IMG/VR virus record: IMGVR_UViG_3300033182_000600
Span: 1-33,353 of that record
Source: a virus
DNA: 33,353 nucleotides
Direction: 5' to 3' (one strand)
Shown: positions 2,522-33,353 of the stretch, piece by piece
How positions within the stretch are numbered: position 1 is the stretch's first letter
How the letters are laid out: each line of letters starts with the position of its first letter
The notes under the pieces: generated by a model
What the model saw: the letters and a program-made list of their open reading frames with translations, nothing else
Told to the model about the DNA's origin: nothing
The model's database searches: none
Program-made: the position numbers and the translations under genes

Positions 2522-2695
2522 TTATTGATAAGAATCAATCAATTCTTCTGAATCGTCATAATCGTCATAGTCCAAATAATCTTCAGGTGAATCTCCTCTA
2601 AAAAATTTTCGGTTCATGTTCCGTTGTCGCTTGTGTTCAAAACGGCGATCTTTACGTGACACTCCAATCTTTTCATCATTCAATAGTTTTTCCAT
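2522..2695 (-). CDS. small highly charged hypothetical protein, 57 aa
   Basis: Starts at an ATG (2695) that overlaps the last 20 bases of the deformylase gene and is preceded by GAGGAAAT. The product is split by charge: a basic N-terminal half (SRKDRRFEHKRQRNMNRK) and an acidic Asp/Tyr-rich tail (DYLDYDDYDDSEE). Such a layout suits a nucleic-acid or protein-bridging peptide, but no family is recognised. Confidence 0.6.
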   Translation of the reverse strand: MEKLLNDEKIGVSRKDRRFEHKRQRNMNRKFFRGDSPEDYLDYDDYDDSEELIDSYQ

Positions 2696-3185
2696 ATTTC
2701 CTCACCAATACTCGTTGTTTTTTTCTAGCCTCTCTCAAAAGAGTCTTACTGACTCGTTCTGTAAAGTTTTTGCCATTCATATGATCCATCTCGTGATGGA
2801 AAATTCTAGCCTCAAATCCTTCAAGGTTTTCATGTATCAACTCACCCCTCTCAGTACGATATGAGACGGTAATGGATTTAGGTCGGTGAATGTTCAACCA
2901 CAAGTGGGGGTAACTGAGACAACCTTCTTTCATAAAGACTGTTTCCTCAGATTCTTCAAGAATCTTTGGATTGAAACAGGTGACTGGAGTTTCTCCATTC
3001 ATTAGCATAGAAAATACCTGAAAAGGAACTCCAACCTGATTTGCAGAAAGACCCACTCCTTTATGTAAAATCATATTACTACTCAACATCTCTGCAAACT
3101 TCTCTGAGTCTAACTCTCCATTGAAGTCCCATACAGCAGGAGTTATAGACAGTGCTTCGTCAGCCTCTGGTACTAAATCAATCAT
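2676..3185 (-). CDS. def: peptide deformylase
   Basis: A 169-residue enzyme that removes the formyl group from the N-terminal Met of nascent proteins. All three family motifs are present: GVGLSANQ (residues 43-50), EGCLSYP (87-93, with the metal-binding Cys89) and HEMDH (131-135, two metal-binding His and the catalytic Glu132). The length is typical. Its ATG overlaps the stop of gp46 by four bases, so it is read with the 47/46 operon. Phage deformylases are common in marine T4-like phages and are thought to keep up with heavy phage protein synthesis. No key residue is missing. Confidence 0.96.
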   Translation of the reverse strand: MIDLVPEADEALSITPAVWDFNGELDSEKFAEMLSSNMILHKGVGLSANQVGVPFQVFSMLMNGETPVTCFNPKILEESEETVFMKEGCLSYPHLWLNIHRPKSITVSYRTERGELIHENLEGFEARIFHHEMDHMNGKNFTERVSKTLLREARKKQRVLVRKYGKTIE

Positions 3186-12173: not shown

Positions 12174-12827
12174 TTAGAGTTTAGTTAGGAAATCTTCAAA
12201 TACTTTGATCATTGTTTGCTCACGTTCTTCCTTTGAAGGAGCTTTTTCAATTTGATCTTTGTAATCTTGGATCTGTTGTTCTTTTAAAATCCCGTTGTCC
12301 CAAACCCATTCTCTTCCTTCCATGATTCCATGTACGAATGCATCAGGAGCAGAAGGGTCAGCAACGATATCAGCAGCAGTTGCAAGATAAAAGTCATTTT
12401 GAACTTCTTGTATACCATCCTTACCAGGCTTGAGTGAACCCATACCTCTGGACGACACGCCGAGTCTTGCACCCTCGTCAATCAAATTCTTGACGATCTT
12501 ACCGTAAGGAGTATCAAGAATTTTTGCTCTACCCACAAAGTTGTTATCAACCTTGACCAACTCTTCAATCATGTGAGAAACTCTCTCCAGATTGACTGTT
12601 GGTCCGTCAGGATGACCCAGTTCTCCAAAAGCTCTCTTTTTAGAGATGAACTCATCGGAATACCGTTTAACCTCTTTTTCAAGGATAGGCATACTATAAA
12701 TTCTACCATTTCGGTTCTTTGTTTCAGCCTGCATGAAGACACCCTCAATGAAATAATTTTTTGGTTGTCCTTCTGTGGCTTCAATCAAGAAATCTACTTG
12801 GGTAGCCTCTTCGCTAATAAGTTTCAT
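12174..12827 (-). CDS. gp21: prohead core protease gp21
   Basis: A 217-residue S80-family serine protease that matures the prohead by cutting scaffold, capsid and internal proteins after (L/I)xE. The catalytic His is in ELGHP (His72) and the Ser in GVSSRG (Ser125/126), with KNRNGRIYS and the DTPYGKIV segment between them typical of the family. The length matches T4 gp21 (212). A start ATG at 12827 is preceded by a GGAG. The gene is followed by 22 and 23 and preceded by three candidate substrates. Confidence 0.95.
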   Translation of the reverse strand: MKLISEEATQVDFLIEATEGQPKNYFIEGVFMQAETKNRNGRIYSMPILEKEVKRYSDEFISKKRAFGELGHPDGPTVNLERVSHMIEELVKVDNNFVGRAKILDTPYGKIVKNLIDEGARLGVSSRGMGSLKPGKDGIQEVQNDFYLATAADIVADPSAPDAFVHGIMEGREWVWDNGILKEQQIQDYKDQIEKAPSKEEREQTMIKVFEDFLTKL

Positions 12828-13608: not shown

Positions 13609-14337
13609 TTAGTATCCTACTCCTGCTCTGGATGACAAGTATCCAAGAGTTCCATTTTTCTCGTAGTTTGGTGTATTGAACCCACCCGTTTTTGAAATAT
13701 TGACCATTACAGTGTACCCTGCTTGATTCGTGCCAGAAATAGTTCCTGCAAGTTTGATATCACCCAATGTTGTTCCACCAGATGCTGTCATTGGAATTGA
13801 ACCCATATCACTATTTCTTAGATCCCATTTACCGCCTCCAGTGAAGTAGCCGATATCTTGGGAAGTGGTCCCATCAAAGGTTACTGTTGCAACCATGTTA
13901 GTAGTACTCCACCAAATTTCTCTCACAGCAAAGTCTGGAGTATTGAATGCTGGTGCTGTTGAAGCATCTGTATTGGGTTGACTGCCCGAAATACTACCTG
14001 AAACAGTTTTATTTGTTCCAGGCAATGCACCACTTGAAGCAGCAATTGGTGTAGAGTCTGTTCCACTAGTTACAAGATAACAAGTTGCTGTTGATGCTCC
14101 AGCAGTGTAGTCTTGAACCACTGCATATGCAGGAGTACCAGCCGAATCAAAGGTCAATATTTCACCGATACACAAATTGGTGGTTGGTGCAGTAGTAAAG
14201 GTAACCGTGAACAGTCTATATTTCAGGTCTCGTGCATCTTGTTTCTTTGTTGCTGACTCACTGGCTGTCCCAGTATAAGTACATAAAAGTGTATAGTCAG
14301 AAACCGTATCCCTGATTAGTTGAGTGGTTGCAGCCAT
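13609..14337 (-). CDS. beta-rich putative virion protein, 242 aa
   Basis: Rich in Thr, Gly, Ser and Ala with few charged residues, typical of exposed virion proteins. The C-terminal half (TVTFDGTTSQDIGYFTGGGKWDLRNSD, then SGGTTLGDIKLAGTISGTNQAGYTVMV) resembles small structural proteins found near head genes in marine phages, with a beta-sandwich pattern. It could be a head decoration or fibre-like protein. It lies between two candidate internal head proteins with only 1-3 bases between genes. No named family. Confidence 0.75.
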   Translation of the reverse strand: MAATTQLIRDTVSDYTLLCTYTGTASESATKKQDARDLKYRLFTVTFTTAPTTNLCIGEILTFDSAGTPAYAVVQDYTAGASTATCYLVTSGTDSTPIAASSGALPGTNKTVSGSISGSQPNTDASTAPAFNTPDFAVREIWWSTTNMVATVTFDGTTSQDIGYFTGGGKWDLRNSDMGSIPMTASGGTTLGDIKLAGTISGTNQAGYTVMVNISKTGGFNTPNYEKNGTLGYLSSRAGVGY

Positions 14338-14340
14338 TTA

Positions 14341-15450
14341 TTATACCTCATGTGCTTTACCAAGGACTTTCATGAAACCTCTTTCAGTCCTTTGGAGTTG
14401 ATTGATAATTTTTTTCTTTTCGGATGAATCCAGACTGTCAATGTATTTGACTAGAATCTGAGCAGTAAGGGGTTCAATTGGAATACTGGTCCCATCAGCT
14501 AAAGTCACTTCTCCATCAGTTTTAGACTTAGTCATTTTTTGGAGGTCACTTCTCAAATCCTCATACAAGACACTAGAAAAATTTAAAATGAATGAATCTT
14601 GTACATACTCATAATCACCAGGCATTCCACTTGAACCTCTCTTTTTGGTCCATCCTACAACACGATCCAGACCCCATCTTTTCATGTGGTTTTCAACGTC
14701 TTTTGTGTTCTTTAATTTTTTTCTTTCCAGATTTGCTACGTCATCTTTCATGTCATCTGGAATGTCTTTGATGTCTTTACCGACATAGTCCCTTGGTAAT
14801 TTTACACCAGTACCTTCTGGTTCTTGTTTTTCTGGTTCTGGTTTTTGATCTTCTGGCTCAGGTGTTGGTTCTTGTTTTTCTGGTTCTGGTTTTTGATCTT
14901 CTGGCTCAGGTGTTGGTTCTTGCTTTTCTGGTTCTGGTTTTTGATCTTTTGACTCAGGCTTCATTGTAGATGGTAAATCCATATCATCTAACGATTCACC
15001 TCTTTGAACCTTAACTTTTATTTCTCTGTTGAATCTATTTGCTTGATTTCCAGCTTCTTTTTCTAATTCTACTATATCATCGTTATTTGGATTTTTATAT
15101 TCACTTCCAAATTTGATTCCCATTTTTCCAAGATCATCATTGCCTGGATCAGGTTTTTTAGGGTCTATAAAATAAGATAATGTTTCTTCTTTTTTAGTGT
15201 TTGGGTTATAAGTTTTTACATTAATATCATACCCATATTCAGCATTATCCTTTTTCTCTTTCTGAGATTTTTCAGCATTATCCTTTTTCTCTTTCTGAGA
15301 TTCTTTGTAACCCTTGATTTTATCCTTGACTTTTTTATAGGCCTTACCACCAACACCCCACAGAGCCATAGCACCCATTAGTGCAGCACCAATGGGTCCA
15401 ATTTCGTTTATTTTCTGTTGTTCTACTATAAACTCTCTGTAGGTCTTCAT
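14341..15450 (-). CDS. internal-protein-like head protein with capsid-targeting N terminus and Pro/Glu repeats
   Basis: A 369-residue protein. Residues 1-10, MKTYREFIVE, closely resemble the capsid-targeting sequence of T4 internal proteins (MKTYQEFIAE in IPIII), which gp21 cuts after the Glu. A second (L/I)xE site is INE16. Immediately after it comes a hydrophobic segment (about 17-35, IGPIGAALMGAMALWGVGG), then a duplicated SQKEKKDNAE, and a Pro/Glu-rich rod of a 16-residue unit (about 165-212). The C-terminal third is mixed alpha/beta. Inference: it is packed in the head, trimmed and possibly ejected with the DNA, its hydrophobic helix contacting a membrane. Its start overlaps the 67-like gene stop as TAATG. 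Confidence 0.85.
   Translation of the reverse strand: MKTYREFIVEQQKINEIGPIGAALMGAMALWGVGGKAYKKVKDKIKGYKESQKEKKDNAEKSQKEKKDNAEYGYDINVKTYNPNTKKEETLSYFIDPKKPDPGNDDLGKMGIKFGSEYKNPNNDDIVELEKEAGNQANRFNREIKVKVQRGESLDDMDLPSTMKPESKDQKPEPEKQEPTPEPEDQKPEPEKQEPTPEPEDQKPEPEKQEPEGTGVKLPRDYVGKDIKDIPDDMKDDVANLERKKLKNTKDVENHMKRWGLDRVVGWTKKRGSSGMPGDYEYVQDSFILNFSSVLYEDLRSDLQKMTKSKTDGEVTLADGTSIPIEPLTAQILVKYIDSLDSSEKKKIINQLQRTERGFMKVLGKAHEV
14819..14962 (-). repeat. 48-bp tandem repeat encoding a Pro/Glu rod
   Basis: Three consecutive 48-bp units (14819-14866, 14867-14914 and a diverged 14915-14962) encode a 16-residue unit built of PEPEKQEP and TPEPEDQK. The first two units look identical. Confidence 0.9.
15238..15303 (-). 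repeat. 33-bp tandem duplication
   Basis: Two 33-bp units (15238-15270 and 15271-15303) differ only at their last base and encode the duplicated SQKEKKDNAE block. Confidence 0.9.
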
Positions 15451-15647
15451 TACTCTGTCGGTTCTGATGTTGCTGGTGCATCTTGTTGAGTCACAGAGTT
15501 GAACATTGATTGAGCAACTTCTGCTTTCTTTGATTCAATTGCATTCATAACCTTATTTGCTAAAACACTCTGAATGGCATCCTTTACTTTGGACCCATCC
15601 CCCGAGTAAGAATATTTTACAATGTCTTCTGGAGTGTAATCACTCAT
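15450..15647 (-). CDS. small prohead core protein, gp67-like
   Basis: A 65-residue protein, YTPEDIVKYSYSGDGSKVKDAIQSVL then NKVMNAIESKKAEVAQSMF, followed by a short polar tail. The two-helix pattern, with ARTIDLIKEEKIAIARNF in T4 gp67 aligning to NKVMNAIESKKAEVAQSMF, and the location between portal and protease genes support a gp67-type prohead core component. The acidic tail of T4 gp67 is much shorter here. It has its own TATAAATA promoter 32 bp upstream. Confidence 0.78.
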   Translation of the reverse strand: MSDYTPEDIVKYSYSGDGSKVKDAIQSVLANKVMNAIESKKAEVAQSMFNSVTQQDAPATSEPTE

Positions 15648-15678: not shown

Positions 15679-15686
15679 TATTTATA
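15679..15686 (-). promoter_or_regulatory. late promoter TATAAATA (head-core operon)
   Basis: Exact minus-strand TATAAATA 32 bp before the 67-like ATG at 15647. It separates the adhesion island from the head-assembly genes. Confidence 0.85.
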
Positions 15687-15738: not shown

Positions 15739-16086
15739 TTACGGTTTATCAGGCCAAATAACATTTGTCAAATCTCCATTCTCGTCAAGTTGAGGGTTAG
15801 CATCTATTGTAATGTCTCTGAGTGCTTGACGATAATCCAGCCATGCTTGCTTGTTCAAATGAGTGTAGTCTGCCAAACCCCACGGAACATCAGTCTCTAA
15901 AAGCAATTGGTCTCTTTGACTTCTCAACTGGTCAATCGCAGGAACATAATCAGGAGGTTCTGGTGTGTTGCCTTCTGCCAACCACGCAAGGTATTCCTGA
16001 TAGTGACGGTTTCCTCGGTCATTTGGAATAGTTGAATTTTTTTCAGTGTTCAGAATGTTGTCCGAGTCTTTTATAAGTTTATACAT
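15739..16086 (-). CDS. tail fibre assembly chaperone-like protein, copy 3
   Basis: A 115-residue protein whose C-terminal half follows the phage tail assembly chaperone (Phage_tail_APC-type) pattern: LRSQRDQLLLETD, W..YRQALRDI, then a proline-marked VIWPDKP end. Such proteins help a fibre encoded just upstream to fold or attach. It begins 2 bases after the 274-aa fibre gene and is the last of three homologous genes in the island. The N-terminal half (MYKLIKDSDNILN) is not shared with the other two. Confidence 0.82.
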   Translation of the reverse strand: MYKLIKDSDNILNTEKNSTIPNDRGNRHYQEYLAWLAEGNTPEPPDYVPAIDQLRSQRDQLLLETDVPWGLADYTHLNKQAWLDYRQALRDITIDANPQLDENGDLTNVIWPDKP

Positions 16087-16088
16087 TT

Positions 16089-16913
16089 TTATAACTCCGC
16101 GTCATAAATCAAATTTCCATAAAATCCAGAACCCGCACTAGATAAATCTAACCTTCCTCCTGAAAATTTTGAATCATAAATTGATGTTGCTGTTACGCTA
16201 GTAGTGGTTATAATACCGTATGAACCAACTGTCACTAAGTTTTCGCCAGTAAATTCAGGAGTTGTTCTCATTACAACAGGAAATACGATGTTAGACGGGT
16301 GATATGTAATGCTGGCAGTAGCATCTGTTCTTTGGTAATACCCGATATATTTTTGATAATACCTCTGACACAACGCCAACTCCACACCATAAGGTCGGTG
16401 TTCAAACGGTGTGGCAGTAGAACCTGTTTCAAGTTGGACTTTGCTCAAGTTTGTCAGTGTTCCACCAAATCTAATCCAGAGATGCTTACTATACTCTGTT
16501 GCTTCATTCACAGTGATGTTTCCACCATTTGAAACTGTGGTCCAAGTTAGCCCACTATCTGGACCATCACCTGCTGTCGTGTCTGTTGAAACTACATAGG
16601 ATGCCGTTATGTCTGAACCAGCATCTTGCCAACTCAATGTGTATGTTCCGTTGAACACATTTTTGTCCTCAACTCCCTGATACAGATAAGTTCCATCGTA
16701 ATACCATCGGTCGTAATTGTAATCAGATGATGTTGCTGTGATGGATGCTGCGCCTCTTTGATTGACTTGGAAATTTCCATTGATGATGAGATTACGGAAA
16801 CCAGAGAGTTGACCACCATTCACGTTAGATGTAGTGATTCCATTAGAAAAATTTGGACCACCGTTGCCTGCTTTATTGTAGATGTTATCTATGTACAGTG
16901 TTGATGATGACAT
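16089..16913 (-). CDS. tail fibre/adhesin-like protein, 274 aa (pair 3)
   Basis: The protein opens with SSSTLYIDNIYNKAG, a short fibre-attachment-like segment. Residues about 39-54 (FRNLIINGNFQVNQRG) and about 158-195 (VQLETGSTATPFEHRP then ELALCQRYYQKY) are the two hallmark blocks of a carbohydrate-binding-like beta-sandwich common in marine phage tail proteins. It probably contacts surface sugars of the host. It abuts chaperone copy 2 upstream and chaperone copy 3 downstream, forming a fibre/chaperone pair. Confidence 0.82.
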   Translation of the reverse strand: MSSSTLYIDNIYNKAGNGGPNFSNGITTSNVNGGQLSGFRNLIINGNFQVNQRGAASITATSSDYNYDRWYYDGTYLYQGVEDKNVFNGTYTLSWQDAGSDITASYVVSTDTTAGDGPDSGLTWTTVSNGGNITVNEATEYSKHLWIRFGGTLTNLSKVQLETGSTATPFEHRPYGVELALCQRYYQKYIGYYQRTDATASITYHPSNIVFPVVMRTTPEFTGENLVTVGSYGIITTTSVTATSIYDSKFSGGRLDLSSAGSGFYGNLIYDAEL

Positions 16914-17345
16914 TTATTCTCTTACTGGCCACGAATTGAAAACTAATTCTCCATTTTCATTCAATGTTGGTGCTTCTATGTTTCCTGCCTCAATTTCCTG
17001 TGGAAGATTTCGTAAAGCACTTCTATATGTTTTAAGTTCAGTAATATCTATTTCTTCTTCAATTCCACGAGTAACTTCCCAGTCTGTTTCGTTGAGTAAT
17101 CTAGTTCTTTCTAAACGAAGAAGACGAAGTGGTTCGGCTGCTTGGAGTTCTTGGATTTTTGCTTGGATTTCTTCCCAAGTCACTCCAAAATCGTCTGAAT
17201 TAGAACTTTCAATTCCACATTGATTTTCATCTACGCCAACAATCTTTTTGAACATTTGAAGAAATTCTTGCTCATTTGTTGGAGTTCCTCTCATAACCCA
17301 ATCGGTTATTCCTAGTTCATTTATTGCTTGTGTTACATCTATCAT
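16914..17345 (-). CDS. tail fibre assembly chaperone-like protein, copy 2
   Basis: A 143-residue protein. The C-terminal half matches the pattern of the other two chaperone-like genes: LRLLRLERTRLLNETDW, TYRSALRNLPQE, LNENGELVFNSWP. The N-terminal half (MIDVTQAINELGITDWVMRGTP) differs and may select the fibre partner. The start overlaps the stop of the 200-aa fibre by four bases. Confidence 0.82.
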   Translation of the reverse strand: MIDVTQAINELGITDWVMRGTPTNEQEFLQMFKKIVGVDENQCGIESSNSDDFGVTWEEIQAKIQELQAAEPLRLLRLERTRLLNETDWEVTRGIEEEIDITELKTYRSALRNLPQEIEAGNIEAPTLNENGELVFNSWPVRE

Positions 17346-17944
17346 TGCGCAATCTCATAAACGGTTATGTGATGGGCAGCACGACAATCAACGTTATTGT
17401 CGTTTCTATTACCAATGTATAGAGTATACGAACTACTACATTTAGCGGTCAATACGAAATCAATTTGCGATAATGATGTCGTTGTATCCTCAAGAGTTGT
17501 TCCATAAAACATTTTCATCTGTATAGCAGTGCTAACAGCATAAAGATTGCTCAATGGGTTCACATCATCCGTACTCGGGGTGACTAGTTGAGTAGTGGTT
17601 ACTCCAGAAATTGTTTTATTCAATCTAACATCATTCGCGCCAGAACCAGTTGCCCCATAATTGAAACTAAATGAAATCAGCAATTTTGAACCAATTGCTT
17701 TGGGTGTAATGCTTACCGCAAGATTAGTATTGGTGTATGCTGCGCTGGTATGTGAAGATGGTAATTTACTTGTAGTGTTTACCATTTGAATAACATGCCC
17801 AGCAGGAAAAGTAACATTACCACTCAAAGCACCTGCCGCACTCATTATTTCAGTTCCAGAACTACTCTTCAGAGAATTTTCCAGAACTATTCCGTTTCCC
17901 GATGTCTTTTCTTGTAGTGCGTCTACTTTGATTATTGATGCCAT
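17342..17944 (-). CDS. tail fibre/adhesin-like protein, 200 aa (pair 2)
   Basis: The N-terminal ~45 residues (IIKVDALQEKTSGNGIVLEN then SSGTEIMSAAGALSGNVTFP) are shared with the 251-aa fibre at 18222-18977, down to the DNA level, and look like an attachment or trimerisation segment. The C-terminal ~130 residues are an unrelated beta-rich tip (VVVAST-poor, Thr/Ser/Asn-rich, ending AHHITVYEIAQ) similar in style to receptor-binding tips of marine phages. Linked by one-base and four-base overlaps to chaperone copies 1 and 2. Confidence 0.8.
   Translation of the reverse strand: MASIIKVDALQEKTSGNGIVLENSLKSSSGTEIMSAAGALSGNVTFPAGHVIQMVNTTSKLPSSHTSAAYTNTNLAVSITPKAIGSKLLISFSFNYGATGSGANDVRLNKTISGVTTTQLVTPSTDDVNPLSNLYAVSTAIQMKMFYGTTLEDTTTSLSQIDFVLTAKCSSSYTLYIGNRNDNNVDCRAAHHITVYEIAQ
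17805..17864. repeat. 60-bp repeat shared by two fibre genes, copy A
   Basis: Sixty bases matching 18838-18897 with two mismatches, both at third codon positions, coding the shared SSGTEIMSAAGALSGNVTFP block. Confidence 0.92.
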
Positions 17945-18225
17945 TATTCAGTCTCTGATGGTTTCGTGGGCCATTCAACATTAGTAAGATTCCCATTCTC
18001 ATCTAACTCTGGCTGTGCTGTCTCGGGTAAATCACGAAGTGCTTGCATGTAAACTGCCCATTCTTGTGGTACTGCTTGTCCTTGTGAGTATGCTCTCAGT
18101 GTTATATAGTCTGTTTCTTGAAGTAATCTATTGCGTTCTGTTCTGAGTACCCGTAATGTATATTCTCCCAATGTAATATTTTCAATTTCTAATATAGGCT
18201 GAACGAGTTCTAAAAAATTATTCAT
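17944..18225 (-). CDS. tail fibre assembly chaperone-like protein, copy 1
   Basis: A 93-residue protein, the shortest of the three. LRVLRTERNRLLQETDY, W..YMQALRDLPE and ENGNLTNVEWPTKP match the other two copies nearly word for word. Only a short N-terminal segment precedes the conserved part. It overlaps the 251-aa fibre stop by four bases and the next fibre start by one. Confidence 0.82.
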   Translation of the reverse strand: MNNFLELVQPILEIENITLGEYTLRVLRTERNRLLQETDYITLRAYSQGQAVPQEWAVYMQALRDLPETAQPELDENGNLTNVEWPTKPSETE

Positions 18226-18977
18226 GCCAATCTCCTGATTTCTAACCTACCACCAGATATACTTGAATAAGTTCCATAAGTATAATTATTAAAAAACCTA
18301 ACACTTCCAACATCATCAAAATTTACAATAAATGAGAATACACCACAATAAGATATATTTTGTGCAGTGCCAGTTCCACCAGAATAACTATAAAAAGTTG
18401 TTCCATTTTCATCTTGCACGGTCACTTTTCCATTTGATGTCCATGCATAAGAATACCAATTACTATACCCAGTAAACAAATAATATTTACCATGATTGCC
18501 ATTATTTTTTAATGATATTCTATTATTAGAAAAATCTATCCAATCGTCTACCGATGGTTCAGTAGAAATTCCACCTGCATTTCCATACGCATCATAAGCG
18601 GGAGTTGAACTGCTAGACCAACCTTGATATGTAGAATACGCTTGTCCTGATAGTAAAATATCATATTGCCTAGATGCTCCACTACCCTGAACCATAGTGT
18701 TTTGATTCAATGCCCATGTGTATGCCTTACCATTGTGTGTCCCAAAATCAATACCAGAACCTAAAATTAATTTTGTAGTATTAATAGTGGATGGAAAAGT
18801 AACATTACTTCCTAATGTTGTATTATCAATGGTTGATGGAAAAGTAACATTACCACTCAAAGCACCCGCTGCACTCATTATTTCAGTTCCAGAACTATTG
18901 AGCAACGGACTATTCAGTTTGACTCCCGTTCCCTCTGCTGATTTTTCTATCTCATCTACGATTATTTTTCCACTCAT
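18222..18977 (-). CDS. tail fibre/adhesin-like protein, 251 aa (pair 1)
   Basis: Opens with SGKIIVDEIEKSAEGTGVKLN and the SSGTEIMSAAGALSGNVTFP block shared with the 200-aa fibre, then two short internal repeats (NVTFPSTI). The C-terminal ~160 residues form a distinct Tyr/Ser/Gly-rich beta domain (TGYSNWYSYAWTSNGKVTV, then VRFFNNYTYGTYSSISGG), probably the receptor-binding tip. Followed at once by chaperone copy 1. Confidence 0.8.
   Translation of the reverse strand: MSGKIIVDEIEKSAEGTGVKLNSPLLNSSGTEIMSAAGALSGNVTFPSTIDNTTLGSNVTFPSTINTTKLILGSGIDFGTHNGKAYTWALNQNTMVQGSGASRQYDILLSGQAYSTYQGWSSSSTPAYDAYGNAGGISTEPSVDDWIDFSNNRISLKNNGNHGKYYLFTGYSNWYSYAWTSNGKVTVQDENGTTFYSYSGGTGTAQNISYCGVFSFIVNFDDVGSVRFFNNYTYGTYSSISGGRLEIRRLA
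18838..18897. repeat. 60-bp repeat shared by two fibre genes, copy B
   Basis: Partner of 17805-17864, with two mismatches. It marks the conserved N-terminal part of otherwise unlike fibres and could serve for homologous exchange. Confidence 0.92.
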
Positions 18978-19180
18978 ACTATCGTCAGTGTTCCATTAAT
19001 TGTAATGATTGAATTTGCTGTAATTGGACCAGCCAATACACAATTATAATCAGCATCTATTGTAATATTTTCATTTAGTATACTTTTATTCACAACCAAA
19101 TGTTTTGCTTTTACAGAACCATCTTTACTTTGTTTTTCTAAAAAATCTGCTTTGAGAGTTCTAGAACCTAATAGTTTCAT
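18974..19180 (-). CDS. small beta-rich protein of the adhesion island, 68 aa
   Basis: A 68-residue protein. SRTLKADFLEKQSKDGSVKA is followed by short alternating hydrophobic/polar strands (LVVNKSILNENITIDADYN, GPITANSIITINGTLTIV) that read like a small beta-helix or beta-roll cap. Similar tiny proteins accompany fibre genes in marine phages. Function unknown. It overlaps both neighbours by four bases. Confidence 0.68.
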   Translation of the reverse strand: MKLLGSRTLKADFLEKQSKDGSVKAKHLVVNKSILNENITIDADYNCVLAGPITANSIITINGTLTIV

Positions 19181-19521
19181 GTTTGCTCCACTATTGATAA
19201 AGAAACATCAAAAGAACTTGCTGTATTAGATGTAACTTTTAATACATCTGAGGCATTTAAAATCAACTTATTTCCAGACATAATTTCTAATGCAGTTCCT
19301 GTTGGTACAACTAAATTTTTTGCAAAATTTACAGATTGACTCGCATCGTTATCATCTATATATACACCAATTTTAATATCATTATCTATTATATTTGAAA
19401 TTGTAAATCCTATTACAATAGTAGTTGTAAGAGATGGTACTGTATATACAGATGCATTTGCACCTCCTGTAGAATAATTAGTTCCACCATTATATGTTTT
19501 GAGTAAGAGTGTATTTGCCAT
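19177..19521 (-). CDS. small beta-sandwich virion-type protein, 114 aa
   Basis: A 114-residue Thr/Ser/Asn-rich protein. The block LEIMSGNKLILNASDVLKVTSN near the C terminus is characteristic of small virion-associated proteins found next to fibre genes in marine and other phages. No cysteine, no signal peptide. The likely role is a fibre or baseplate accessory; not recognised more precisely. Confidence 0.72.
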   Translation of the reverse strand: MANTLLLKTYNGGTNYSTGGANASVYTVPSLTTTIVIGFTISNIIDNDIKIGVYIDDNDASQSVNFAKNLVVPTGTALEIMSGNKLILNASDVLKVTSNTASSFDVSLSIVEQT

Positions 19522-19528
19522 TTATAAA

Positions 19529-20248
19529 TCAACCGAAAATTATTGAATTAATGAAAGCGTCATCCTGAATCGGTGTAAGATCACTTGTCAATGCAACAGT
19601 ACCAGTACTGTCTGGTAATGTTATTGTTCTATCTCCTGTAGGATCACCACCTTTTAAAGTTGTTTCATATGGGTCGGCTGTAGTACCTTCAAATTTAAGA
19701 TCAAATCCAGCATTCAAATAGATACCATTTTGATTTATACGAACAGGAATATCGTTTGAACCACCATTCTTTACAGCAAATTCAATTATTCCATCTTCAG
19801 ATCCAGATGTGACATCACCTATTTTTCCAGTGATCTTAGCATAAACTTGAGAACTGCCTGCATCATTATCTCCCCGAAACTTCAACTGTCCAAGATAGTC
19901 TGCAGTTGCTGGAGTACTAGAATCACGAACTAAATCAATAATCGGACCTGCATCAACTCCATCATTGGTGGTCGTAATCGTAACAGAAGGTGTAACTGTA
20001 CTGGTCCCTGCAATATCAATATTTCCAGTTCCAGTTATGTCGTTGCTGTTTAGGTCAAGATTCCCACCAAGTTGGGGAGTAGTATCATCTACTATATCAG
20101 CAAGTCCTCCTCCACCAATCTCTTTGACTGTTCCTGAGTCATTAATGTAAAGTTTTTGAGTAGAAGTATCTACTGCTACTTCACCAGAAACAATGTCACT
20201 CGTAGTAGGAGTTGTGGTTCCTCTTTTGAGTTTAATTACTGTTGCCAT
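19529..20248 (-). CDS. tail fibre-like protein, 239 aa
   Basis: The N-terminal segment IKLKRGTTTPTTSDIVSGEVAVDTS then KLYINDSGTVKEIG is the short N-terminal motif used by many phage fibres to join the virion. The middle contains NLDLNSNDITGTGNIDIAG beta-repeat sequence, and the C terminus (DRTITLPDSTGTVALTSD) is the common fibre-stalk motif. The protein lacks an obvious large tip and may act as a connector, or work with the collagen-like fibre encoded just before it. Confidence 0.8.
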   Translation of the reverse strand: MATVIKLKRGTTTPTTSDIVSGEVAVDTSTQKLYINDSGTVKEIGGGGLADIVDDTTPQLGGNLDLNSNDITGTGNIDIAGTSTVTPSVTITTTNDGVDAGPIIDLVRDSSTPATADYLGQLKFRGDNDAGSSQVYAKITGKIGDVTSGSEDGIIEFAVKNGGSNDIPVRINQNGIYLNAGFDLKFEGTTADPYETTLKGGDPTGDRTITLPDSTGTVALTSDLTPIQDDAFINSIIFG

Positions 20249-20266
20249 AATGTAATACCTTTTTTA

Positions 20267-21709
20267 TTAGTAAGTTCCACCGTCAATTATATTTGTCCAA
20301 TCAGGTGTTCCACTATTAGAGTACAGGAAGTAACCATCCGTTCCAGCCCCAGTTGCTTGTACTGCACCAGTTCCATTCCCGTAGAGTAATCCGTTTGAAG
20401 TGAATGTTGTTGCTCCAGTACCACCGTTTGTAACAGGAAGAGTTCCCGTTACCTTACTAGTTAGGTCAATAGATCCAGCCAACATAGCATTAGTAATGCC
20501 AAGTGCCTTAACTTGTAAGGCATCAGAAGAAACTTCAATTGACGAATTATCTACTGCAACATCAAGTGTAACTGAATCTGATACAGCAGATACTGTAGAT
20601 GTAATTGCTGAACCACCAGTAATAGTAAGAGTGTCCCCAAGGTCAACTACTCTAGAATTCGTACCATCCGTAACCGTAATAGTAGAATTACCAGATCCAC
20701 CAGTTGGGGCAGATGCTTTCCATTTTTTAGCAGTTGAATTCCATGTTAATACGAAACCATTATTCGGATTTTTGACTGAGTCATAATCAACATCGTCTAA
20801 CTTGTGGAGATTAACTTCACCCCCACCAGTTAAAATAGGTGCACCAGAAGAAGAAAAATTTATTGAAGAAATTCTTTGGTTTAATTTATTTATTTCTTTC
20901 TTATAATACTCATCATCTATATCTTTTCCCGCAGGACCAGTGTCACCTTTTTCTCCCTGATCGCCTTTTTCACCTTGTGGACCCTGTGGACCCCGTTCAC
21001 CTTGGTCGCCTTTTTCACCTTGTGGTCCTTGAATTCCTTGTATACCTTGAGGGCCTTGGTCACCACGATCACCTTTTTCTCCTTGGTCTCCTTTTTTACC
21101 TTGAAGTCCTTGAGGACCAATTGAGCCAGTATCACCCTTTAATCCCTGTGGACCCTGTGGACCCCGTTCACCTTGGTCGCCTTTTTCACCTTGTGGTCCT
21201 TGAATTCCTTGTATACCTTGAGGGCCTTGGTCTCCTTTATCACCCTTCAGTCCTTGAATTCCTTGTTCCCCTTGTGGACCCTGTTCACCTTTCTCACCCT
21301 GCTCCCCTTGTGGACCTTGAATACCCTGATCACCCTTCTCACCCTTCTCACCTTGTGGGCCTTGAATACCCTGCTCACCTTGTGGACCTTGAATACCCTG
21401 ATCACCCTTCTCACCTTGTGGGCCTTGAATACCCTGCTCACCTTGTGGGCCAGCAAGACCTGGCACACCTTGAAATCCTCTTGGTCCTCTAAGACCTTCT
21501 AGTCCCTGTGGACCTTGTTCACCTCGTTCACCTTGTGGACCTTGTGTAATCGTTTGTTCTATTAATTGATAATACTCTTCGTACAAACGATTTACCTCAG
21601 AGTCCAGTTTTTCCCTAAGTTTTTCAACCTCAGATTTTGTATACTGAAGACTAGTAGCAAGAACTTTTGCACTATTCAGATCAACTTTATCCGATATACT
21701 CATGCTCAT
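20267..21709 (-). CDS. collagen-like tail fibre protein
   Basis: A 480-residue protein in three parts. Residues 1-56 are a helical, coiled-coil-like region ([26 protein letters not shown]). Residues 57-263 are 69 uninterrupted Gly-X-Y triplets, mostly [12 protein letters not shown] and GEQ, expected to form a bacterial-type collagen triple helix (no hydroxyproline needed). Residues 264-480 hold a second short coil and the stalk/tip with [14 protein letters not shown], a classic fibre motif. It overlaps the portal stop by 23 bases. Strong purine bias gives long false ORFs on the opposite strand. Confidence 0.92.
20976..21061. repeat. 86-bp exact direct repeat in collagen gene, copy A
   Basis: Identical over 86 bases to 21147-21232, offset 171 bp (57 codons, 19 Gly-X-Y triplets). 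A recent internal duplication or gene-conversion tract. Confidence 0.93.
21147..21232. repeat. 86-bp exact direct repeat in collagen gene, copy B
   Basis: Second copy of 20976-21061. The offset is a multiple of three codons per Gly-X-Y, so unequal exchange would keep both frame and triplet register. Confidence 0.93.
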
Positions 21710-23363
21710 CTTCTCCTAATACTGTTTTGAAAATATCGTTGATATGCATTTTCAACTCTTCATCTTTTTGTCGGTCAACAATCTTTTTCTCTACGATGTC
21801 ATCTAAAGATTCATTCAGAGTTTGACCATTCTTATGTTTATATGATTGAAATTGTTCTTCTTGATCCATGTCATCATCAGGTTCAGCTTTCTTTTCCAAC
21901 TCAATCTCACGATCCATTTGTTCAATTTCTTCTTGAGTTTGTTTTAGAATACGTTTTCTGACATAATCTTTAGAATAGAAGTTACCAATGACCTCATCGG
22001 CAAAGTTCATAGATTGAAGTAGTTGAAGTCTTTCTTGGAGCATCTCGGCTTCTTTCAATTCGGCAAAGTGTGAATCGGTTTGCCATTCATAAACCACGTC
22101 TTGCTCAATCATTCTCCAATCATTCAGTGTAAGAATACCCTTGAGAATAAGTTGTTTTTCAAGACATGTATGGAACAACTGATTGAAACGATTTCGTAGT
22201 CTTTCAATGAACCGTGTAAATTTGACTTCATCTCTACTTATCTCCTGTGCCCTACCAAGAGTAAACCCTGTCTCTTGTTGAAGCCTTGAAACAGGGACAT
22301 TCAAAGCCTTATAGAGTTTATTCTGAAAGTACTCAACATCAGCCATCTCCCCGAGGTTTTCACCACCAGGCAAAGTAGAAATCTCTGTGCCTCGTCCACC
22401 CTCTCTTCGTGGCAACCAATAGTCTTCCAACATAGACATATGTTTTCGGTCATCTCTCAGTTCACCTGTGTTAGCATCATAGACCATTTTATTCTTATAC
22501 CGAGTCATAATATCACGGAGATATTGTTCAGCCTTCATCTTTGGAAGGTTACCGACATCAATATAGAAGATTCTTCTTTCAGGTGCTCTAGAGATACGAT
22601 AAATCACCACAGCATCTTCAATCATACGGAGTTGGTTGAGAGGTTTGATTGCTTTGTGGAGGTAAGAAATAACTAACTTACGATCTTCACTGAGTAAGCC
22701 AGAATGTGCATAGGCAATAGAATCTGGAGCAATTCTCAACATATTACCACCCTTCTTACCATCTACACCAGATTCATTGAAAACATAGTATTCATCAATT
22801 CTGGGCTGCCCTTTGAAGTCGTTGATGTCTTTCGGAGGGGTGACTTGTCGTACTTTCTTGATCTTGAGAGCATCAATGGGTCTCAATTCAAGAATACCTT
22901 TTTTGGGGTTGGATGGATCAATAATCACATGATAATAGATTCTACCATCTACATACCACTTTTTGAAAATGTCATAACCAAGTTCTCTAAACCGAAGAAG
23001 CCGAGATACATCGTGAAATGCATCCGAAATCTTTTGTTTGATGTCTGGGGAAAGATTGATATTCTCTAGGTTTAGAGAAACAGGATATTCTTCTCTGTCA
23101 GCAACGATAGCTTCATTGATGATATCGTCAATCGCAATCTCACATTCTGGATAGATTGCCATCTGACGATAACGATGAATTAGATCAGCCTCATTCTTTG
23201 CTGCACCTTCCATGTCAAGGTAGGTAGCAAATGCAGCACCAGGCGTTCCTGATACGTCAAGGGAACCATCTTCTGTGGCTGGTAGAGTAAAAGATACTCT
23301 TTCTTGACTTTCTTTTTCTTTTTGTGCTCTACCAATACTAAAACCGAATAATTCAATAGGCAT
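21687..23363 (-). CDS. gp20: portal vertex protein gp20
   Basis: A 558-residue portal, forming the 12-subunit ring at the head vertex through which DNA passes. Recognised by [15 protein letters not shown] (about residues 54-68), [56 protein letters not shown] and [14 protein letters not shown], all standard T4-family portal blocks. T4 gp20 has 524 residues; the extra length is an acidic C-terminal tail. A strong AGGAGG precedes the ATG, with a GC hairpin just upstream. Confidence 0.97.
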
Positions 23364-31532: not shown

Positions 31533-31877
31533 TCAATATGTTGCAGAAGGAGTTACTGTAGCGACACCCTCGGCAAGTCTTTCTACTGTAGTCCCATCGG
31601 ACTGAGTGTACTCCACATCATAGACGTATTGCCCTGCTGGGATAGTACCAGAGGTAGATGCAGAGAGTGAGATAGTCACATTAGACCCACTGATAGAAGT
31701 ACTAAAAGAGAATACGTTGTTTGATGAATAGTGAGACTGTCTGAGTTTGGCTGATGTAGTGCCAGAGGAGATGGTCACATTACCACCTGCCGTATTCTTG
31801 GCGGTAATGGTCTTTTCAAAGGTTGTTCCTTTATCTATGACCAGATTGACAGTTTGTTTATTGAGGGTGGTTGCCAT
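31533..31877 (-). CDS. small beta-rich putative virion protein, 114 aa
   Basis: A 114-residue Thr/Ser-rich protein. NLVIDKGTTFEKTITAKNTAGGNV is followed by regularly spaced strands and a GTIPAGQYVYDVEYTQSDGTTVERLAEGVATVTP ending, typical of a small Ig-like sandwich used in phage structural proteins. It precedes gp13 with 8 bases between. A CATAAATA late box lies inside a perfect inverted repeat upstream. Function not known. Confidence 0.75.
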   Translation of the reverse strand: MATTLNKQTVNLVIDKGTTFEKTITAKNTAGGNVTISSGTTSAKLRQSHYSSNNVFSFSTSISGSNVTISLSASTSGTIPAGQYVYDVEYTQSDGTTVERLAEGVATVTPSATY

Positions 31878-32442: not shown

Positions 32443-33353
32443 TTATAGTCCAGCAGCATCAAGTCTTGCGGTGAGTGCATCAATTTGTTGCTGTTGGGAT
32501 TCAATAATAGTTTGCTGTTCCTTGATAGCATTGACCAAAACTGGAATCAGATAATTTGACCCCATTTTAAGGTTTTCTGGATCTGAATTGTCGATGATGA
32601 TGGGGTCATCACCTTCCAGCTCAAGAACTTCCTGTGCTGAAAATCCGTAACGTTCTGGTCCATGATTTTCAGGTTCTTCTCTGGATTTCTTGAAAAAGAA
32701 TTTTATTGGATTCAGTTGTTTGACAAATTCCAAACCGTGACTAACCACACCAGTGATATTTTTATCCCGAATGTCTGATGTGGTGATTGTGGAAGTTTTG
32801 CAATAAAAAGTCGTGGTTTGATTATTCCCCAGAACAACATGATGGGATTGAGTGGTTATATCAACAAAAAAAGACTGACTGCCTGAATTTCGACCGATTG
32901 CAACGTTATTTATCCCAGTGGTGAGATTGCCTAGGGCTTCTTTTCCAATAGCAGTGTTTCGGTCACCACTGGTGTTGCTGCGGAGGGCGTATTTTCCGAT
33001 AGCAGTACACCATGCCCCAATGGTGTTATAGCGGAGGGCCTCATATCCTATAGCAGTGTTGTCGTAGCCACCTGAGCCGCTAGGGATGTTAGACTGGAGT
33101 GCTCCCCTACCTACCACAGTATTGCTACCACTTCCGCCTGTCCCCCTGCCAACAGTAATGTCGTAAATCGTGGCGTCTGCTGCAAACGTGGCATTCCCAG
33201 TAAACGATGGACTGGTGAACATTGTTGCTTTGGACTCATTGGTCACATTACCCAAACCAACGTGAGCTTTAGTGACCCCTGATACCGTTCCTGTAAAAGA
33301 CGGATTAGTGAACATCGTTGCTTTGGACTCATTGGTCACATTACCCAAACCAA
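32443..33353 (-). CDS. tail fibre with C-terminal S74 intramolecular chaperone, N terminus off window
   Basis: The last ~303 residues of a fibre. From the window edge: repeats of GNVTNESKATMFT.PSFTG, then a run of trimeric-adhesin-like head repeats (NTAIGYEALRYN, CTAIGKYALRSN, NTAIGKEALGN, NVAIGRNSGS). The terminal ~110 residues are an S74 chaperone of the endosialidase type: TSDIRDKNI carries the Ser-Asp dyad for self-cleavage before Ser, then ERYGFSAQEV and a C-terminal coiled coil (IKEQQTIIESQQQQIDALTARL). The chaperone trimerises the fibre and cuts itself off. The frame stays open to 33353, so no start is seen. Confidence 0.92.
   Translation of the reverse strand, partial: GLGNVTNESKATMFTNPSFTGTVSGVTKAHVGLGNVTNESKATMFTSPSFTGNATFAADATIYDITVGRGTGGSGSNTVVGRGALQSNIPSGSGGYDNTAIGYEALRYNTIGAWCTAIGKYALRSNTSGDRNTAIGKEALGNLTTGINNVAIGRNSGSQSFFVDITTQSHHVVLGNNQTTTFYCKTSTITTSDIRDKNITGVVSHGLEFVKQLNPIKFFFKKSREEPENHGPERYGFSAQEVLELEGDDPIIIDNSDPENLKMGSNYLIPVLVNAIKEQQTIIESQQQQIDALTARLDAAGL
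33215..33353. repeat. 93-bp-spaced direct repeat at window edge
   Basis: 33215-33260 and 33308-33353 match over 46 bases with one mismatch, offset 93 bp (31 codons). They code the GNVTNESKATMFT fibre repeat, and the second copy ends exactly at the window end. Confidence 0.92.

Follow-up and report, generated by a model that had tools for sequence, protein, structure and literature searches.

In the Pam3 gp24/gp25 pair (PDB 7YPX), the variable N-terminal domain of the chaperone binds the fibre tip while its conserved helical domain trimerises (PMC9608196). In R-type syringacins the tip of the fibre (Rbp) and the chaperone are exchanged together, with the conserved fibre N-terminus as anchor (PMC6331570), and in Alteromonas phage V22/A5 a fibre and its downstream cognate chaperone move as a module between distant phages (PMC7289586, PMC10579305). 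Joint exchange of fibre and chaperone (PMC6331570, PMC10579305) and variable host recognition clusters (PMC7029224) are already known. Here we analyzed a viral DNA stretch, IMG/VR record IMGVR_UViG_3300033182_000600 (33,353 bases, classed linear, a genome fragment; hereafter the window), which carries three tandem fibre/chaperone pairs between its portal and prohead protease genes. We conclude, with a probability of roughly 0.75, that this array belongs to a second island for host recognition in a marine T4-like phage, bounded by the portal stop and by the promoter-like motif of the following head-gene unit, and that its fibres are co-expressed and served by class-specific chaperones.

Genes on the minus strand of the window follow a T4-like order: neck genes, terminase, sheath, tube, portal, fibre region, prohead protease, scaffold, major capsid protein, UvsY, and UvsW. 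The original prediction, made by a model from the letters alone, had described six open reading frames at 15739-18977 on the minus strand, and their lengths in amino acids (aa) and short overlaps or gaps were all as it gave them. Named fibA-apcA-fibB-apcB-fibC-apcC in minus-strand order, they are as follows (ntB and ntC are the apcB-type and apcC-type N-termini; L334 is a viral contig and Melnitz an isolated methylophage):

18222..18977, minus strand: fibA, fibre 1, 251 aa; tip 76% over 199 aa to the fibre before gp21 in L334
17944..18225, minus strand: apcA, APC chaperone 1, 93 aa, very short N-terminus; PF16778 64.2 bits; 55% identical to its L334 counterpart
17342..17944, minus strand: fibB, fibre 2, 200 aa; tip family in PDB 9efk orf22 497-656 (4e-16) and Melnitz gp194/195
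16914..17345, minus strand: apcB, APC chaperone 2, 143 aa, ntB N-terminal domain; PF16778 28.7 bits; Melnitz gp196 47% over 115 aa
16089..16913, minus strand: fibC, fibre 3, 274 aa; phrog_4492 tail fibre 3e-33; Melnitz gp177
15739..16086, minus strand: apcC, APC chaperone 3, 115 aa, ntC N-terminal domain and APC core; PF16778 42.2 bits

Each APC gene sits directly downstream of a fibre gene (3/3). fibA and apcA overlap by 4 nucleotides (nt), apcA and fibB by 1 nt, and fibB and apcB by 4 nt; apcB and fibC abut, and 2 nt separate fibC from apcC. The overlaps suggest that translation is coupled.

The three small proteins all exceeded the gathering score of PF16778 (Phage_tail_APC; 26.6 bits), with E-values of 1e-17 (apcA), 1e-6 (apcB), and 7e-11 (apcC). 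They are homologous in their C-terminal core, as had been proposed, with identities of 52% over 64 aa (apcA-apcC), 39% over 71 aa (apcA-apcB), and 37% over 67 aa (apcB-apcC), and their N-termini are indeed unlike. By profile they are APC-type fibre chaperones with a predicted role in folding. A high-confidence AlphaFold2 model of apcB (predicted local distance difference test score, pLDDT, 95.9) consists of a small alpha/beta domain followed by helices, and a Foldseek search of viral models with it returned other APC-like proteins. For apcC the two-part build of ntC and APC core was read from profiles; this fusion is unusual, with 3 such entries versus 102 ntC proteins without a detected core.

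The fibres also conformed to the description made from the letters: their tips differ, and the N-termini of fibA and fibB are alike (58% over 48 aa). Neither fibA nor fibB gave a tblastn match in 50,697 phage records, and fibA has one close relative among viral contigs (L334). The fibC profile matched no solved structure, a Pfam scan found no S74 domain in fibA, fibB, or fibC, and the AlphaFold model of fibA, built from two sequences, was poor (mean pLDDT 44).

Upstream of fibA, the same gene run contains a collagen-repeat fibre, an Mtd_N-like fibre, and two small genes (o114 and o68), so that the inserted unit spans 15739-21709, about 6 kb, of which the three pairs form the distal half. The placement in the gap between genes 20 and 21, a gap that is usually short, was thus correct, as were the flanking portal and prohead genes, but the 3.2-kb block first described had missed 18974-21709. 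The remaining island genes and the flanks are (G006 is another T4-like record, described below):

21687..23363, minus strand: portal gene (gp20), near flank; phrog_213 6e-200
20267..21709, minus strand: collagen-repeat fibre, 480 aa, first island gene; Pfam Collagen 8e-37; overlaps the portal stop by 23 nt
19529..20248, minus strand: Mtd_N-like fibre, 239 aa; weak Mtd_N match, under the Pfam cut-off; homologue Melnitz gp187
19177..19521, minus strand: o114, small structural-type protein common in fibre arrays; phrog_26609 4e-14; 58% in the G006 array
18974..19180, minus strand: o68, small protein recurrent in fibre arrays; matches Melnitz gp193 and the G006 array
15679..15686, minus strand: TATAAATA, late-promoter-like motif at the far edge of the island
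15450..15647, minus strand: o65, far flank, which adjoins the portal gene in empty relatives
12174..12827, minus strand: prohead protease (gp21); phrog_207 5e-81

The motif TATAAATA, the T4 late promoter consensus, occurs five times in the window versus 1.4 expected, and four of the copies are on the minus strand, each immediately upstream of a gene. The island thus has the portal stop on one side and, before o65 on the other, a conserved promoter-like element. Base composition was uninformative as a sign of foreign origin (island G+C 38.5%, rest 39.4%).

We compared this site in a clade of contigs whose portal proteins are 71-78% identical to that of the window. In empty relatives o65 starts 41-57 nt after the portal gene. 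In occupied relatives the gene after the portal encodes an orthologous collagen fibre, with N-terminal residues homologous to those of the window's fibre; to control for low-complexity collagen matches this comparison was limited to the N-terminal 48 residues, which have homologues in occupied relatives only and no match among phage records. TATAAATA immediately precedes o65 in the window, as it does in every empty or occupied clade relative for which the sequence upstream was read; in the distant record L355 it is absent. The gene order of occupied relatives, assembled from several contigs none of which spans the whole island, is collagen fibre, a fibre of ~750-950 aa, proteins of ~69, 102, and ~200 aa, and a fibre of ~900 aa ending in an S74 domain. 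No APC gene was found in the gap of these relatives, whose contigs are partial, and within its clade the window alone was seen with fibre/APC pairs at the site. The portal C-terminal tail (21687-21900 in the window) also varies, with portals of 556-560 aa in occupied and 537-550 aa in empty clade relatives.

Beyond the clade, 74 more distant loci span portal and protease; in this survey, which short contigs bias against long gaps, 73 gaps measured 177-1931 nt and one (L127) 8.5 kb, with a collagen fibre of 2,484 aa. Fibres were present here in other lineages as well: L138-L140 (portal 52%), L054 (fibre and APC before an o65-like gene), and L334/L358 (a fibA/apcA pair before gp21), although the L054 and L334 contigs begin inside the array and leave the portal side outside them. 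In L138, L139, and L140 the portal gene is also preceded by a tandem pair of tail-tube-like genes (177 and 202 aa). In a tree of portal residues 1-500, with 12 occupied and 12 empty clade rows, the two kinds of row were intermixed: a single occupied clade was rejected (approximately unbiased test, p 3.9e-7), and at least 6 occupancy changes are needed over the whole tree, of which well-supported branches force 3. The pattern fits repeated loss, repeated gain, or exchange, which are indistinguishable here. The comparison across relatives proposed at the outset thus showed a site gained, lost, or refilled, and the occupied clade relatives carry other fibres there, with no APC gene among them.

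If the array had landed only recently as a piece of a host recognition cluster and were decaying as an unused passenger, this would account for fibA, fibB, and fibC being short compared with the fibres of occupied relatives. We consider this highly improbable: all ten open reading frames of the island are intact with tight junctions, the fibA/apcA pair is in frame in another phage, likewise upstream of gp21, and fibres of similar size build large arrays elsewhere. Slightly less improbable, yet still very unlikely, is that the island, being in the head gene cluster, encodes head, collar, or portal-vertex fibres mounted on the head or neck rather than on the tail. Its position between portal and prohead protease, the start of its first gene inside the portal gene, and the portal tail length that tracks occupancy would agree with this. 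However, homologues of the Mtd_N-like fibre, o114, o68, fibB, fibC, and the APC proteins lie in ordinary fibre arrays (Melnitz, G006), and in T4-like phages the position of a gene does not fix its place in the virion.

The original prediction had also given each fibre its own matched partner. We built profiles of ntB, ntC, the APC core, and two fibre tip families and read ~330 loci with them; because loci were fetched by chaperone or by fibre, the type of the neighbour is a readout free of selection. Chaperones with ntB were preceded by a fibB-type fibre in 53/60 non-edge cases and by a fibC-type fibre in none, and those with ntC by a fibC-type fibre in 102/103 cases and never by a fibB-type one. 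When the chaperones were clustered first, the counts were 5:0 versus 0:47 (Fisher p 4e-7). In many other phages, too, genes of the fibB/apcB and of the fibC/apcC types lie side by side, which, like the APC E-values, exceeds chance. In Melnitz, gp195/gp196 are relatives of fibB/apcB and lie between gp15 and gp16, and the fibre region contains gp177/gp178 (a fibC relative and an ntC protein) and gp179/gp180. Glycine-rich fibres in Melnitz (L171; gp171/172 and gp175/176) are each followed by a protein of ~125 aa of another recurring kind, possibly a further class of fibre partner.

The units in which fibres and chaperones are exchanged were visible in several comparisons, the first being a block of DNA found also in L334:

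18115..18788, minus strand: DNA block common with L334 (77%), covering the fibA tip and the start of apcA; 677-nt blastn high-scoring pair

The fibA relative of L334 is followed by a 93-aa chaperone, and gp21 of the two phages is only 59% alike at the protein level. Along the identity profile, similarity of the fibre stalk and of the APC core falls off on either side of the 677-nt block. In a second pair of loci, L178 and L341, nearly all intervals between approximately fibre nt 100 and chaperone nt 186 are 95-100% identical, and past these limits identity falls to ~40-55%; their APC core begins at chaperone nt 150. In a set of 102 non-redundant pairs, resemblance between tips was accompanied by resemblance between chaperone N-termini (Mantel test, 0/500 shuffles as high), and the partners of nearest tips ranked at the 99th percentile for the chaperone N-terminus versus the 86th for the core.

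The apcB-type chaperones set a limit to this matching. Those that are 85-100% alike follow tips with a median similarity of 0.12. For 268/294 pairs of loci whose apcB-type chaperones resemble each other, the DNA becomes alike no more than 60 nt ahead of the chaperone gene (0-60 nt, median 29), and among the 294 no pair has its identity start 60-200 nt upstream. Because identity begins just before the chaperone start, the chaperone appears to have been kept while upstream tips were replaced, with the last ~9 fibre residues staying with the chaperone. One dedicated chaperone per tip is ruled out, since near-identical apcB-type chaperones follow unrelated fibB-type tips. The claim of one matched partner per tip is too strict for the same reason: matching holds at the level of fold classes and breaks down for individual tips. 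From sequence, the specificity of a chaperone would be for the fibre fold class, not the individual tip.

The last residues of the fibres differ by class. fibB-type fibres end in an EIA[G/Q]-like and fibC-type fibres in an AEL-like motif; in the window, fibB ends in YEIAQ and fibC in DAEL. We considered whether these motifs merely reflect Shine-Dalgarno sequence: GAG codons are enriched ahead of fibC-type chaperones, in 76/101 cases versus a GAG background of ~36%. This explanation covers part of the signal only, because the amino-acid motif, there mostly encoded with GAA, is kept even when the following gene starts far away (17/19). We tentatively propose, as an idea more doubtful than probable, a plug-in code in which the N-terminal domain of the chaperone reads the fold class of the fibre, marked by its last residues (EIA[G/Q]-like for ntB, AEL-like for ntC). 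With stalk and tail both conserved, the tip between them might then be freely replaceable, and entire cassettes of fibre and chaperone might dock at a second site beside the portal gene of marine T4-like phages.

In the mechanism that we favor, each chaperone would be made beside its fibre and its variable N-terminal part would bind the C-terminal region of the fibre. The conserved helical APC core would drive trimerisation, and the chaperone may leave the finished fibre. Since specificity would be for the fold class, tips could be swapped within a class without a change of chaperone; in other exchanges a single block would carry both tip and chaperone N-terminus, broken on one side within the fibre stalk and on the other where the APC core starts. 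The fibres would most likely be transcribed late with sheath, tube, and portal and be mounted on the tail together or in competition.

No minus-strand TATAAATA occurs between 26274 and 15686, that is, between the motif of the sheath gene and that of o65, so sheath, tube, portal, and fibres are probably produced jointly. The modules had also been thought of as possible alternatives. On such a reading, a virion would express or use a single fibre of the three, selected through recombination or regulation in the manner of phase-variable fibres. A nearly identical repeat in fibA and fibB, in the same orientation, could support recombination:

18838..18896, minus strand: 59-nt anchor repeat at the stalk end of fibA, 2 mismatches to 17805-17863
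17805..17863, minus strand: 59-nt anchor repeat at the stalk end of fibB, 2 mismatches to 18838-18896

However, recombination between direct repeats deletes rather than inverts. Inverted repeats in the region are short and imperfect, and the 33-kb record, a fragment of a genome, contains no convincing invertible or diversity-generating fibre switch (inverted repeats, template repeat). We found no recombinase or reverse transcriptase among its scanned genes and no internal TATAAATA in the island. With nothing seen in its support beyond the repeat, alternative use is unlikely, and joint expression seems likelier than switching.

Several points weigh against co-expressed fibres with class-specific chaperones. 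Many comparison contigs are short and related, so that the counts are not independent events. The argument for co-expression is the absence of a motif, and binding of fibre by chaperone is presumed from sequence and by analogy. apcA has almost no N-terminal domain, with ~21 residues ahead of the core. In a Foldseek search of the PDB, the apcB model had no match below E 0.9, leaving likeness to the Pam3 gp25 fold unsupported. Finally, the C-terminal motifs are also present in fibres without an adjoining chaperone and may thus be a feature of the fold and not a chaperone tag.

Upstream of the neck genes the window contains a fibre with an S74 self-chaperone domain (32443-33353, running past the end of the record) and an LtfC-like protein (L-shaped fibre assembly; 31533-31877). 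These two genes likely mark the edge of an ordinary host recognition cluster. Because they adjoin the neck genes, the island beside the portal gene is probably a second host-recognition locus and not a moved one. Elsewhere in the window, a peptide deformylase gene lies at 2676-3185, and a 242-aa protein at 13609-14337 has no Pfam or PHROG match; in the close relatives it is conserved at ~32-45% identity, between o369 and gp21.

Arrays of fibre/chaperone pairs are common in marine viral contigs. The 93-kb T4-like record G006 (L356, L357) has one at 53-86 kb, where ~30 kb hold 13 APC genes along with several stand-alone ntC genes; its fibres have related N-termini and unlike tips, an o114 homologue lies near the array start, as in the window, and no recognised fibre gene was found in its gp20-gp21 gap. 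Homologues of fibB/apcB, fibC/ntC, o114, and o68, and the alternation of fibres and chaperones, link the island to Melnitz and to the host recognition cluster of pelagimyophages (PMC9004378, PMC7029224). In those phages, however, the fibres are in a cluster between VrlC and gp14 (PMC7029224) or near gp15/16, and the gp20-gp21 gap of Mosig, HTVC008M, and Melnitz contains small open reading frames only. The island shares with such clusters a variable region with fibre/receptor-binding genes and differs in its location, between gp20 and o65/gp21 instead of VrlC and gp14. The open-access literature searched yielded no account of fibres forming an island at the portal/o65 site or lying in the portal-protease gap, nor of exchange boundaries at the junction of chaperone N-terminus and core. 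What is new here is the location and the module boundaries; the fibre/chaperone pairs themselves are known. The island would give marine T4-like phages a second, precisely bounded site of host-recognition change, and this within a cluster of head genes usually taken as conserved.

The S74 (chaperone of endosialidase) fibre of the relatives occupies the same genomic position behind the same first collagen fibre, with a built-in chaperone domain in contrast to the separate APC chaperones of the window. As the site is seen empty, with self-chaperoned fibres, and with fibre/chaperone pairs, it offers natural before/after comparisons. As with Pam3 gp24/gp25 (PMC9608196), the chaperones of the window would each be dedicated to a small, presumably trimeric fibre, and apcB and apcC are predicted to have a variable N-terminal part and a conserved C-terminal helical part, but there a single pair is present and here an array; because the apcB model has no significant match to any solved structure, the analogy is architectural. 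The chaperone of Alteromonas phage V22 has a DUF4376 C-terminus, not APC, and likewise belongs to a single pair (PMC7289586, PMC10579305). Syringacin exchange concerns one tailocin locus with inconsistent downstream breakpoints (PMC6331570), whereas some breakpoints here fall at the boundary of chaperone N-terminus and APC core and others just before the chaperone start, which hints at the part of the chaperone that is specific and the part that is generic.

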